64,000 nucleotides of DNA, taken from assembly GCF_029504735.1 (NCBI RefSeq), contig NZ_JAQFIP010000003.1, forward strand, positions 124,001-188,000. Direction: 5' to 3'. The position numbers and the translations under genes were made by a program. The notes below the pieces were generated by a model. The model was not told the origin of the DNA. It saw only the letters and a program-made list of their open reading frames with translations, and did no database searches. Below are positions 5,562-10,076 of the stretch, piece by piece (positions within the stretch are counted from its first letter, which is position 1; each line of letters opens with the position of its first letter). Source of the stretch: Ereboglobus sp. PH5-10. GTDB lineage: Bacteria; Verrucomicrobiota; Verrucomicrobiia; Opitutales; Opitutaceae.

Positions 5562-7340
5562 TTACTTCATGATCATTTCCTTCACCGATTTTCCGGCGGG
5601 GATCATCGGCAAAACGTGCTCGCTGTGCGGCACGATCACGTCGAGCAAATACGGGCCGTCATGGTCGAGCATTTCCCGGATCGCATCGCGCAGCTCGCTC
5701 TTCTTGATCACGCGGCGCGCCTTCACGCCGAAGCCTTCCGCGATCTGTGTGAAGTTCGGATACAGGCCGCCGATGTTTGTCGGGCTGCCGATATTGTTCA
5801 CGTCGCCAAGAATCGTCTGCCCGCGGACGCTTTGATAAAAACGGTCCTCCCACTGTGTCACCATGCCAAGGTGCTGGTTGTTCAGGACCATCACCTTGAT
5901 GTTGATTTTTTCAATGGCCGCGGTGGCGAGTTCCTGAATGTTCATCGTGGTCGAGCCGTCGCCGTCGATGTCGATGACCTGCCTGTCCGGACACGCAACT
6001 TTGGCGCCAATCGCCGCGGGCAGGCCGTAACCCATCGCGCCGAGGCCGAGCGAGCTGATGTAGCGGCGCGGTTTTTCGAACGAGTAAAATTGCGCGGCCC
6101 ACATCTGGTGCTGTCCGACGCCGGTCGCGATGATCGCGTCGCCCTTGCTCAGTTCGTAGAGCGAGGCCACCGCCTCCTGAGGCAAAATGTGCGGGCTGTC
6201 CGGATAACTGAACGGATGCTCCTTGCGCCATTCGCGGATTTGCGCAATCCACGCCGCCGTGTCGGGCGCGGCAAACGAGCGCGCGGACATGAGCTTGTTC
6301 AGGCGCGTGAGCGCATCCTTGACGTCGGCGCAAACCGGGTAATCAACGCGCTTGTTTTTATTGTGCTCGGAGGCGTCGATGTCGATGTGGATGATCTTGG
6401 CGCGCGGAGCAAATCTGTCCGTGTCGCCCGTGATGCGGTCGTCGAAACGCGCGCCGAGGCTGATGAGCAGGTCGCACTGGTCGACGGCCCAGTTGCCATA
6501 CGCCGAGCCGTGCATGCCGAACCAGCGCGCCGAGAGCGGATGCGTCTCGGGGAACGCGCCGAGGCCCATGAGCGTGGTCGCGACCGGTATTTGCGCGCGC
6601 TCGGCAAACGCGAGCAGCTCCTTGTGCGCGCCGGACGAGATGACGCCGCCGCCGACATAGAGCATCGGTTTTTTCGAGGCCGAAACGAGTCCGGCGATTT
6701 GTTTCAACTGCGCGTCGCTCGCGGTGTGCTTCAACCCGACAAACGGATTGCGGAACGAAACTGTTTCCGGGAAACGCGGCACGAAGCGCGCCTGTTGCAC
6801 GTCCTTCGGAATGTCGATGACCACGGGGCCGGGCCGGCCGCTGCGCGCGAGCTCGAACGCCTCCTTGAAGATGCGCGGCAGGTCGGCGACATCGAGCACG
6901 AGGTAGGAGTGTTTCACGATCGGCAGTGTCATGCCGAAAAAGTCGGTTTCCTGAAACGCGCTCTTGCCGATGTATTTTGAAAAAACCTGACCGGTGATGG
7001 CGACGAGCGGGATCGAGTCCATGAACGCGTCGGCGATGCCGGAGACGAGGTTGGTGGCGCCGGGGCCGCTGGTGGCCATGCACACGCCGACCTTGCCGGA
7101 CGCGCGCGCGTAGCCGCCCGCCGCGAACGCGCCGCCCTGCTCATGACGGGGAAGGATGACGCGCAGCTTTTTGTTGCGCGCGAACGCCTGGTGCAACTCG
7201 AGCGCCGCGCCGCCGGGATACGCGAAGACGACACCGACCTTTTCGCGCAGAAGGCATTCGACGACGCAATCGGCGCCGTTCATTTCACGCGGGGCGGTTT
7301 TTGTCGCGGTGGCGGATGAGCGTTTGGCTGTCTTTTTCAT
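5562..7340 (-). CDS. ilvB: Acetolactate synthase, large (catalytic) subunit, biosynthetic type
   Basis: This enzyme condenses two pyruvates, or pyruvate with 2-ketobutyrate, in the first common step of valine, leucine and isoleucine synthesis. At 592 aa from ATG 7340 it shows three domains: N-terminal TPP pyrimidine-binding with the catalytic Glu67 (LPRHEQGG), a central FAD/Rossmann domain, and a C-terminal TPP pyrophosphate domain with the GDGS...NN motif ([10 protein letters not shown] then [10 protein letters not shown]). A Lys/Thr/Ala-rich tail of about 18 residues precedes the conserved start. No small regulatory subunit gene (ilvN) is adjacent, so it must lie elsewhere. I see no attenuator leader in the 110 bases upstream. 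Confidence 0.93.
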
Positions 7341-7451: not shown

Positions 7452-8453
7452 TCAATGGAGATTCACGCGCGACGCTTTTCCCTCGCGCCCGGCGCGCATC
7501 ATTTCGTCGTAAATCCAGCGGTAAGTTTGCTCCATGCCGTCGCGCAGGCGCGTCGACGGTTCCCAGCCGAACAGCGACTTGATGCGCGTGTTGTCGCTGT
7601 TGCGCCCGTTCACGCCCTTGGGCGCGCCGGGGTTGTATTTTCGCGCGAGCTTCACGCCCGCGATTTCCTCAACGATGCCGACAAGGCCGTTTATCGACAC
7701 GAGTTCCGAGCTTCCGATGTTGAGCGGCTCGGCGCAGTCGCCGCCCATGAGCAACAGCGTGCCTTTTATGCAATCGTCGATGTAGGTGAAACTGCGCGTC
7801 TGGCTGCCGTCGCCCCAGATTTCGATTTCATGCCTGCCGGTGCGCACCGCCTCGATCACCTTGCGGCAAATCGCGGCGGGAGCCTTCTCGCGGCCACCGT
7901 CATAGGTGCCGTGCGGCCCGTAAACATTGTGATAACGCGCCACGCGAGCGACCACGCCGAAATCCTCGTCGAAGTGGCGGCACATGCGCTCACTGAATAG
8001 TTTCTCCCATCCGTAGCCGTCCTCCGGCATCGCCGGATATGCGTCGGCCTCCGTCAGCGGCGTCACGTCCGTGCTCTTTTGTTTGTCGGCATTGTAAACA
8101 CAGGCTGACGACGAGAAGAAAAAACGTCCCGCGCCGCAATCGCGCGCGGCCACAAGCAGGTGTGTGTTGATCAAGACGCTCAACATGCACAGCGCCTTGT
8201 TGTTTTCGATGAACCCCATGCCGCCCATGTCCGCGGCCAGATTATACACCTCGTCGTATCCGCGCACCGCCTCGGCGCAGGCGTCGCGCAACTGCAAGTC
8301 CAGGGTCCGCGACTCCGCGGCGTCATGAATTTGGCACCACGCCTCGACGGGCTTTTTATCCACGGCCCCGACCTTGTGCCCCAAGTCGAGCAAGGCCTTT
8401 ACCAAATGCCCGCCGATGAATCCCCCGGCGCCGCAGACCAGTATCTTTTTCAT
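7452..8453 (-). CDS. NAD-dependent epimerase closely resembling GDP-mannose 3,5-epimerase
   Basis: This is an extended short-chain dehydrogenase/epimerase of 333 aa. The NAD motif GAGGFIGGHL is at the N-terminus. Motifs familiar from plant GDP-mannose 3,5-epimerase are present: NLAADMGGMGFIENN, SSSACVY (Cys118), YGWEK (Tyr147, Lys151), GGREKAPAA (Lys190) and GRNSDN (Arg284). These positions match the catalytic Cys, Tyr, Lys, Lys and Arg described for the Arabidopsis enzyme, which converts GDP-mannose to GDP-L-galactose or GDP-L-gulose. The gene lies 12 bases downstream of a WecG/TagA glycosyltransferase, so a role in making a nucleotide sugar for surface glycan is plausible. The substrate is inferred from motifs only. 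Confidence 0.85.
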   Translation of the reverse strand: MKKILVCGAGGFIGGHLVKALLDLGHKVGAVDKKPVEAWCQIHDAAESRTLDLQLRDACAEAVRGYDEVYNLAADMGGMGFIENNKALCMLSVLINTHLLVAARDCGAGRFFFSSSACVYNADKQKSTDVTPLTEADAYPAMPEDGYGWEKLFSERMCRHFDEDFGVVARVARYHNVYGPHGTYDGGREKAPAAICRKVIEAVRTGRHEIEIWGDGSQTRSFTYIDDCIKGTLLLMGGDCAEPLNIGSSELVSINGLVGIVEEIAGVKLARKYNPGAPKGVNGRNSDNTRIKSLFGWEPSTRLRDGMEQTYRWIYDEMMRAGREGKASRVNLH

Positions 8454-8465
8454 ATGCGAAATTGC

Positions 8466-9254
8466 TTACCCTTTGCGCAGCGTTTCCTCAAGAGGATATC
8501 TTTTCAGCCCGAGCAACTGGAGCGTCACCCTGAGCACGAACAGCGGATTGTTTATCAAGTAGCGACGCCAAAGCCGGCGCGGCTCCATGCACAGCCGGAA
8601 AAACCATTCCAGCCCGCAACGCCGCATCCAGCGAGGAGCCTGCCGCGCGCGACCCGACAAAAAGTCAAACGCCGCGCCCACGCCAAGCAACACCGTGCCC
8701 GACCCGGCGATGCGCGGGGCGAATTGCGCCATGAATTTTTCCTGCTTCGGCGCGCCCAACCCGACCCAAAAAAAGCGCGGCTTGAGCATGTTCACGCGCG
8801 CGGCCAGCACGGCGAGTTCCGCCGGGTCGAGCTCGCGAAACGGCGGCGTCTTGACGCCCGCGACTTTCAATCCCGGAAAACGCGCGCCGAGTTTTTCCGC
8901 CAGCAACCCGGCCGTGCCCTCGCCGCCTCCGTAGAAAAAATGCGTGAGCCCGTCCTCCACGCCCGCCTCGCAGAGCGCAAGCATCAGGTCGGGCCCGTAG
9001 ACGCGCCCGATGTCCCCGCCCGCGCGCCATTTTGCCAGCCAGACCAGCGGCATGCCGTCGGTCGTGTTCAAGAATGCGTCGTTGAGGATGCGTTTGAATC
9101 CGGCGTCCCGTTGCGCCTCCGAAACCCCATGCACTCCCGTCACACACACATACCCGCCCCGCCCCGCGCGCGCGGCATCAAGCAGCAGCGTGGTGGCGAC
9201 GCGCAGGTTCATGGCGCTGACGCCCACGCCGAGCACATTGACTTTTGGAGGCAT
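8466..9254 (-). CDS. WecG/TagA/CpsF-family glycosyltransferase
   Basis: Members of family GT26 transfer a sugar such as N-acetylmannosamine(-uronate) to a lipid-linked acceptor during surface polysaccharide or teichoic acid synthesis. ATG 9254 gives 262 aa, the usual family size; an upstream TTG at 9284 is less likely. Family motifs are visible: VLGVGVSAMNL at the N-terminus, NTTDGMPLVW with the conserved Asp, and VGLGAPKQEKFM. The C-terminus is basic and Trp/Arg-rich (RLWRRYLINNP), consistent with membrane association. It is followed after 12 bases by the epimerase gene and is probably co-transcribed with it. Confidence 0.9.
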   Translation of the reverse strand: MPPKVNVLGVGVSAMNLRVATTLLLDAARAGRGGYVCVTGVHGVSEAQRDAGFKRILNDAFLNTTDGMPLVWLAKWRAGGDIGRVYGPDLMLALCEAGVEDGLTHFFYGGGEGTAGLLAEKLGARFPGLKVAGVKTPPFRELDPAELAVLAARVNMLKPRFFWVGLGAPKQEKFMAQFAPRIAGSGTVLLGVGAAFDFLSGRARQAPRWMRRCGLEWFFRLCMEPRRLWRRYLINNPLFVLRVTLQLLGLKRYPLEETLRKG

Positions 9255-9359
9255 TTCCACGGCCAATTGAAAAAACGCAAACAACGGCGCCGCGCAATGG
9301 GATTTCGCCCGGCGCGCATGCGCGGATTTTCCGCCCGGCGCAAGAAGGCGGCAGCGCGC

Positions 9360-10076
9360 TTACTCCTCGTTCGAAAACACACTCTGCACGTCGTCGATTT
9401 CGTCGAGGGCGTCGTGCAGCTTTTGGAGCGACTCGGCGACCGCCGCGTCGATCGCCACCGTGTTGTTCGGTATGTAGGCGATTTCGGCGGAGTCGGGTTT
9501 GATGCCCGCCTGCTCCAGCGCTTGCGAAACTTTGTCGAACGCGGGGATCGGACAGCGCACTTCGTGGCCTTCCTCGGTCGTGATGATGTCGTCCGCGCCG
9601 GCGTCGAGCGCCACTTCCATGAGCTGGTCCTCGGTTGTCTTGTCCTTCGCGATCAGGAACTGGCCGGCGTGGGTGAAATTGAACGCCACCGCGCCCGCGC
9701 CGGCGAGGTTGCCGCCGTATCGGGAAAACACGCTGCGCACATCGGCCGCGGCGCGGTTCTTATTGTCCGTGGTCACCTTGACGATCATCGCCACGCCGCC
9801 GGGGCCGTAGCCTTCGTAGGTGGCGTCCTCGTAGGAAACGCCGGGAAGCTCGCCCGTGCCTTTCTTGATGGCGCGGTCGATGTTGTCATTGGGCATGTTG
9901 GCGTCGCGCGCCTTCAGGAGGATGGTGCGCAGGCGGGGGTTTGCGTCGGGGTCGCCGCCGCCGGCTTTGGCGGCAAGAGTCAGATCGCGCGAGATGCGGG
10001 AAAAGATTTTGCCTCGTTTGGCGTCAATCGCGCCCTTGAAGTGCTTGAGTTTGGCCCATTTACTGTGTCCTGCCAT
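9360..10076 (-). CDS. yebC: YebC/PmpR-family protein
   Basis: The protein is 238 aa, the standard family length, and starts MAGHSKWAKLKHFKGAIDAK, a slight variant of the family opening. KGTGELPGVSYEDATYEGYG and the GGNLAGAGAVAFNF region are also conserved. Members have been called transcriptional regulators, and more recently some have been tied to relief of ribosome stalling. Which role applies here cannot be told from the sequence. The gene lies between yidC and a glycosyltransferase gene on the same strand. Confidence 0.95.
   Translation of the reverse strand: MAGHSKWAKLKHFKGAIDAKRGKIFSRISRDLTLAAKAGGGDPDANPRLRTILLKARDANMPNDNIDRAIKKGTGELPGVSYEDATYEGYGPGGVAMIVKVTTDNKNRAAADVRSVFSRYGGNLAGAGAVAFNFTHAGQFLIAKDKTTEDQLMEVALDAGADDIITTEEGHEVRCPIPAFDKVSQALEQAGIKPDSAEIAYIPNNTVAIDAAVAESLQKLHDALDEIDDVQSVFSNEE

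Follow-up and report, generated by a model that had tools for sequence, protein, structure and literature searches.

The products of GDP-mannose 3,5-epimerases (GMEs) are rare L-sugars. In the plant enzymes, of which structures from Arabidopsis (2c54, 2c59, 2c5a, 2c5e) and Myrciaria dubia (8sg0) are available, epimerisation depends on a cysteine acid, a lysine base and an acidifying arginine (PMC8787198). GDP-L-fucose synthase (GMER) belongs to the same extended SDR fold class and shares the catalytic cysteine for 3,5-epimerisation (PMC8787198). Forty-three close bacterial homologues of GME were counted in 2011 (PMC3220709), and the first bacterial enzyme to be characterised, GM35E of Methylacidiphilum fumariolicum, a member of the Verrucomicrobiota, was described in 2019, a role in lipopolysaccharide or antibiotics being proposed from the genes near it (PMC6678494). 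For that enzyme, an 80:15:5 mixture of GDP-L-Gal and GDP-L-Gul with GDP-Man is reported (PMC6678494). Among the glycosyltransferases of family GT26, TagA takes UDP-ManNAc, and roles have been assigned to its residues (PMC6493773); TagA/TarA structures come from Thermoanaerobacter italicus (5wb4, 5wfg, 7mpk, 7n41). In the window analysed here, a stretch of 64,000 nucleotides from Ereboglobus sp. PH5-10 (Opitutaceae), a member of a gut genus, a GME-like gene lies beside a GT26 gene. We compared both proteins with these systems and followed the pair across bacterial genomes.

Results

The gene pair is isolated among housekeeping genes

Both open reading frames of the pair, and the short gap that an earlier note on this DNA had described between the epimerase and the glycosyltransferase genes, were confirmed on the minus strand (Table 1). 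The GT26 gene is the upstream member; an alternative start, the TTG at 9284, would give a product 10 aa longer, and an AAAGGG within its final codons is separated from the GME start codon by 15 bases. A promoter and terminator scan returned matches at chance level.

Table 1. Features of the gene pair and its immediate neighbours, in window coordinates
Feature	Position	Strand	Remarks
GDP-mannose 3,5-epimerase homologue (GME-like)	7452..8453	minus, 8453->7452	333 aa; extended SDR, PF01370
Intergenic gap GT26/GME-like	8454..8465		12 bases
GT26 (WecG/TagA/CpsF) glycosyltransferase	8466..9254	minus, 9254->8466	262 aa; PF03808
TGVHG motif of GT26 (T39-G43)	9126..9140	minus	aligns with TagA P38-I42
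Acetolactate synthase large subunit	5562..7340	minus	downstream neighbour; outside module
YebC/TACO1 family	9360..10076	minus	upstream neighbour; outside module

Pfam and NCBIfam scans of the flanks, over up to ~22 kb, recovered gyrB, gyrA, ribose-5-phosphate isomerase, acetolactate synthase, yebC and yidC and no polysaccharide cluster, indicating that the pair is isolated among housekeeping genes. GC and GC3 of the two genes resemble those of the neighbouring genes, and thus give no compositional sign of a recent import. Elsewhere, the 3.58-Mb host genome encodes one ManC-like guanylyltransferase (362 aa), whose score of 285 bits falls short of the GMP_PMI cut-off of 373. It also has two initiating sugar transferases, and its only GT26 is that of the window. 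Two exosortases are also encoded in this genome, at G000:C6:12265-13041(+) and G000:C1:299563-300282(-).

A GME gene with an adjoining GT26 gene was present in three of the four genomes of the genus, and the fourth, 65% complete, yielded no GME at E<=1e-60. Genome G001 (locus L131) has the same gene order as the window. At another locus, L018, the pair is intact despite different flanking genes, neither acetolactate synthase nor YebC being found by tblastn on its 6.5-kb contig. These data show that the pair stayed joined while its location changed.

The epimerase belongs to the GME family, outside the plant group

The five catalytic positions that the earlier note had read in the epimerase, Cys118, Tyr147, Lys151, Lys190 and Arg284, do align with the corresponding catalytic residues (Cys, Tyr, Lys, Lys, Arg) in plant GME, whose residue roles are taken from PMC8787198. 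The protein also possesses the glycine motif GAGGFIG and the S116-Y147-K151 triad, and its N176 and R220 correspond to plant N203 and to the diphosphate-contact residue R243. The match to plant GME is far above chance: a phmmer search against the PDB returned the plant enzymes at E-values from 3.4e-95 (8sg0) to 1.8e-92, compared with 2.6e-28 for the best non-GME protein, and identity to the plant structures is 46-47% over approximately the full length. In a fold comparison, the predicted model (pLDDT 90.7) superimposed on 8sg0 with a Z score of 45.3 and an rmsd of 1.4 over 320 residues, the best other family being UDP-glucose 4-epimerase (4zrn, Z 37.9). The window enzyme and plant GME thus have the fold, the catalytic residues and the diphosphate-contact arginine in common.

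Two other identities were discarded. A general SDR matched by chance is ruled out by the phmmer gap, the fold comparison and the tree described below. GDP-L-fucose synthase is ruled out by the base and the arginine, since in GMER the base is a His and a Lys lies next to the Cys, positions taken by K190 and R284 in the window enzyme, and by an NCBIfam score of 110 against a cut-off of 500.

Phylogeny, which the earlier note had named as a check against plant GME and other SDRs, placed the window protein inside the GME set. The tree, built by a quick method from 125 rows with SH-aLRT supports, omits five duplicate loci (L001, L002, L122, L004, L006) and three non-GME loci (L128-L130). It separates 120 GME rows from five SDR paralogues of the own genome with a support of 99. 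The window protein belongs to a clade of 98 of these 120 rows (support 99), whereas the two plant sequences cluster with 15 Verrucomicrobiota rows (support 87). The unresolved base of the tree holds L118 and L099-L102 (family f24, genomes of 2.2-2.5 Mb), three of the latter clustering at 97. The designation of a plant-type GME therefore stands in one respect and falls in another: sequence, tree and fold all mark the protein as a GME homologue, but it sits in a clade of its own, apart from the plant group, and a strict plant-type enzyme is excluded by the tree. Nor does the supposed closeness to plants hold, with 46% identity to the plant sequences versus 50% to a Methylacidiphilum-like bacterial row.

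The five catalytic residues are invariant in all 120 aligned GME rows, which were themselves retrieved by similarity. When the rows are split into three GME sets, from which L012, L118 and the five paralogues are omitted, the catalytic residues, C118, K190 and R284 included, and the diphosphate-contact residues are invariant in 98/98, 16/16 and 4/4 rows. Seven further residues (W39, Q41, C89, E262, R271, Y273 and A277) are fixed in all 98 window-clade rows, and no more than 2 of the 20 rows that make up the other two sets have them. The window enzyme thus differs from plant GME by its separate clade with clade-specific residues, and its relatives differ by their bacterial polysaccharide context.

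The characterised Methylacidiphilum enzyme probably has its counterparts in L099-L102. Identity to the plant sequence is 50.2% for L100, and the Methylacidiphilum enzyme is described as 50.5% identical to plant GME (PMC6678494). A longer stretch around L100 (L133) has a GT4-type transferase directly beside GME and a CDP-alcohol phosphatidyltransferase close by, the same glycosyltransferase and CDP-alcohol phosphatidyltransferase neighbours as in the GME context given in that source (PMC6678494). These rows fall outside the window clade, and the Methylacidiphilum-like genomes contain GME with no GT26 match.

Such an epimerase is not unusual in bacteria: with a plant query at E<=1e-60, GME was found in 59 of 387 genomes of the phylum, and a match at the same limit was present in 10 of 57 genomes, own genome included. 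With tblastn at the loose limit of E<=1e-3, at least 583 contig stretches encode a relative. The 80 stretches kept from these, at 65-85% identity, come from Verrucomicrobiota, Acidobacteriota, Bacteroidota, Cyanobacteriota, Pseudomonadota, Chloroflexota, Actinomycetota and Planctomycetota. In conclusion, the epimerase adds one more member to an established family, and such enzymes are not rare.

The neighbouring GT26 shares the TagA fold and differs from TagA in the pocket

The glycosyltransferase scored 182 bits against PF03808 (cut-off 27.4), and its predicted model (pLDDT 93.8) matched TagA structures in a fold search, with a TMt of 0.93 to 7mpk. Its residues D66, R84, Q171, E172 and D197 correspond to TagA D65, R83, Q167, E168 and D191, and R220, R227 and R230 to TagA R214, R221 and R224. 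The two proteins, which are ~26% identical and have different partner genes, therefore share the fold, the Asp base, Arg83, Gln167/Glu168 and the C-terminal arginine set of TagA, residues whose roles are taken from PMC6493773. By contrast, T37 and N39 of the TagA pocket are V38 and G40 in the window GT26, and the uracil-stacking Y137 is P138. On these three positions, the protein was not assigned to the TagA-type UDP-ManNAc transferases. The PPF found at the Y137 position is common in GT26s whether or not GME is nearby, and is thus uninformative on the nucleotide; no guanine-reading residue set was found in the GT26 sequence. In the model, strand 34-39 ends and helix 41-49 begins within the TGVHG motif.

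GT26 genes adjoin GME in several phyla

Among 80 genome-contig loci, 29, from at least three phyla, have a GT26 gene directly beside GME on the same strand with no intervening gene; one further GT26 is adjacent on the opposite strand, and two are separated from GME by one gene. Eight of the 29 adjoining GT26s lie upstream of GME, five of them bearing the motif, and the 21 on the downstream side are without exception members of a divergent group. The 43 GT26 rows near GME comprise 24 divergent sequences without the motif and 19 of the window type, 16 of which display [STA]G[VA]HG at TagA positions 38-42, in the pocket region (L021, L056 and L076 lack it). GME neighbourhoods elsewhere are a polysaccharide setting: a Pfam scan of 64 of the 71 close neighbour ORFs that met our limits identified GT4-type transferases (8), cytidylyltransferase-like proteins (8), exosortases (6), UDP-glucose/GDP-mannose dehydrogenases (5) and ManC-type families (2).

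The divergent GT26s directly downstream of GME come mostly from Acidobacteriota (L028, L029, L043, L057-L060, L064, L065, L070, L073, L074, L083, L086, L088-L091, L097 and others). They score 84-93 bits against PF03808 in the three scanned, and mostly have PAAPA and DS where the window type has TGVHG and DG. Low-scoring DS-type GT26s are also found in Opitutaceae that lack GME.

A GT26 subtype tracks GME across genomes

GT26 was detected in 218 of the 387 genomes of the Verrucomicrobiota sample. We read the GT26s of all 45 genomes with both genes and of 96 of the 173 GT26-only genomes, the latter set being non-random, as it consists of the top of the GT26 match list and a low-scoring set. GT26 pieces lacking the motif region were scored negative, and multi-copy genomes were read in part. 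The form [STA]G[VAF]HG occurred in 27/45 genomes with GME versus 1/96 without (Fisher 6e-16), and the narrower [STA]G[VA]HG in 25/45 versus 1/96. Eleven genomes with GT26 at <=~4.2 kb from GME had partly inspired the motif idea; when these were set aside, the counts were 16/34 versus 1/96 (p 3e-10), or 14/34 for the narrower form. Permutation within families, of which eight were mixed, gave 13 joint cases and a p of ~5e-6, the floor of the test. The motif is absent in 18 of the 45 genomes with GME and GT26, one of which (G350) has only a fragment without the motif region. GME-less Opitutaceae also contain window-type GT26s, most of which read differently at the motif site, indicating that GT26 per se is not bound to GME.

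The sole motif-positive genome without GME in this sample, G223, has a best GME match of E 5e-22 at 28% identity. A genome of the same genus, G211, has GME with only a divergent GT26, and G223 has the TGVHG GT26 and no GME, which suggests a pair broken on each side, or gene loss.

A second set was assembled with the motif fixed beforehand, by a class search with a motif-positive Skermanella GT26 as query. It includes 30 loci plus 40 stretches lower in the list, 68 of the 70 being from previously unused genomes, many of these in families or genera already sampled. GME was present in the retrieved flank of 18/50 motif-positive and 0/20 motif-negative loci (Fisher 0.0016), or of 18/48 and 0/20 once two repeats were removed (p 0.0007); in 30 of the 48 new motif-positive loci, GME was not within the retrieved flank. 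Median stretch length was 6.8 kb for motif-negative and 3.8 kb for motif-positive loci, so that the length bias runs against the observed association. Three of the 18 loci with GME also contain a second GT26, which is motif-negative.

The occurrence of the TG[VA]HG GT26 subtype thus tracks that of GME across genomes, non-adjacent genes included. The earlier suggestion of a two-gene glycan module is strengthened on two counts, the pair being kept in the genus and the association of GME with the GT26 subtype extending well beyond it. In a GT26 tree computed without the motif columns, we counted seven motif changes and three supported independent pairs (p 0.5), indicating that it is largely a clade of GT26s that accompanies GME. 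The motif is nearly confined to one clade, and a residue-level role for it is a candidate reading.

The pair on a Skermanella plasmid, and other GT26 arrangements

In another phylum, a Skermanella plasmid carries a UDP-glucuronate decarboxylase-like gene followed in turn by GME, a GT26 with ITGVHG and a WcaJ-like initiating transferase; the decarboxylase-like gene just ahead of GME makes a different donor possible there. This was the one locus with a nearby GT26 among the four plasmid GME loci read (of five), the three others having none within 8-10 kb of GME. The closest plasmid GT26s among the matches listed are from Rhizobium. The one examined has VRDAHG; its neighbours are an undecaprenyl-phosphate glucose phosphotransferase and another SDR with 28% identity to the window GME, the three genes being consecutive at L344:7938-11390(+). 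No Rhizobium plasmid record was among the GME matches at E<=1e-50. The Rhizobium protein is possibly another GT26 donor subtype.

Tandem GT26s were also observed near GME, at L152:6160-7836(-) and L141:10619-12346(-) and at L399, L402 and L403, either as single ORFs (559 and 576 aa, each containing two PF03808 domains) or as separate neighbouring pairs. They join a TGVHG-type copy to one of a different type, which reads AANTH[IV] at four of the five loci, suggesting two sugar additions in succession. In family f55, a GT26 with VFA[VA][DE]S at the motif site was present in 7/7 genomes with GME that were read and in 0/96 without (L213, L251, L247, L245, L250, L217 and L218); these belong to a single lineage.

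Discussion

What appears novel and noteworthy at this locus is the GME-associated GT26 subtype, which is supported by two genome sets. Among the matches listed, no open-access title or abstract start mentioned a GME–GT26 link or the TG[VA]HG motif. We put at roughly one in two the probability that the pair constitutes a small glycan module, in which the L-sugar produced by GME is transferred by GT26. In such a module, GDP-mannose, which the ManC-like guanylyltransferase encoded elsewhere in the genome could supply, would be oxidised at C4 with bound NAD+, epimerised at C5 and C3 by the C118/K190 acid-base pair and then reduced, yielding, by homology, GDP-L-galactose and some GDP-L-gulose. The GT26, predicted to be an inverting, membrane-associated transferase, would then add the L-sugar to a polyprenyl-diphosphate-linked sugar on the cytoplasmic side of the membrane, probably as an early step in the assembly of an exopolysaccharide or O-antigen unit. 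Because the subtype tracks GME, we infer that it uses the GME product, and it may thereby put rare L-sugars into surface polysaccharides. Counting against the module are the Methylacidiphilum-like genomes, which have GME and no GT26 match, and the position of the pair outside any polysaccharide cluster. So do G223, the 18 motif-less genomes among the 45 with both genes, the 24 divergent and three window-type GT26s near GME that lack the motif, the single GT26 among four plasmid GME loci, and the altered TagA positions T37 and N39. A wider proposal, which we advance tentatively, is that TG[VA]HG GT26s as a group would be transferases of GDP-L-Gal, GDP-L-Gul or GDP-D-altrose, forming a GDP-sugar branch of the family in which T39-G43 takes part in a donor code, and that their genes would mark rare-hexose surface polysaccharides.

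The chief rival to the module is a GT26 that works on the same polymer with a UDP donor. The epimerase would then be a real GME and the GT26 would draw on a common UDP-sugar, such as that of glucose, ManNAc or xylose. In this view, the two genes co-occur since they serve the same polymer, onto which another transferase places the L-sugar. To our knowledge, the described GT26 members use UDP-sugars. This is the case of TagA with UDP-ManNAc (PMC6493773), and a candidate for the other transferase is at hand in the GT4-type genes, which at 8/64, level with the cytidylyltransferase-like ones, are among the commonest other GME neighbours and accompany GME in the Methylacidiphilum-like locus, whose genomes have no GT26 match. 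The decarboxylase-like gene of the Skermanella locus and the window-type GT26s of GME-less Opitutaceae, with their mostly different motif letters, point the same way. A UDP-sugar donor nevertheless fits poorly with the fact that a GT26 subtype, and not GT26 generally, tracks GME within families, and we regard it as somewhat unlikely.

The window clade might also have shifted to another substrate or product, either a different NDP-hexose or mainly GDP-L-gulose or GDP-D-altrose. Its seven fixed residues, on a branch supported at 99 SH-aLRT, make such a shift possible, and we know of no assay of a window-clade member. However, the catalytic and diphosphate-contact residues are unchanged, and one and the same GT26 subtype accompanies window-clade GMEs in some genomes and plant-side GMEs in others, which suggests a shared product; we consider the shift improbable. 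Finally, GME and GT26 are both patchy in distribution and many genomes have just one of them, as would be expected if they were chance neighbours whose co-occurrence merely followed genome size or lineage. That explanation is very hard to reconcile with a pair kept in its genus despite differing flanks and with adjacency in 29/80 loci, and the association survives family stratification, the removal of linked genomes and a second locus set.

The GT26 subtype that tracks GME provides a candidate transferase, a type of acceptor (a polyprenyl-diphosphate-linked sugar) and a motif to mutate. If GT26 does transfer the GME product, a transferase would become available for L-hexoside synthesis, and L-galactose or L-gulose would be predictable in the polysaccharides of uncultured Verrucomicrobiota and other bacteria.
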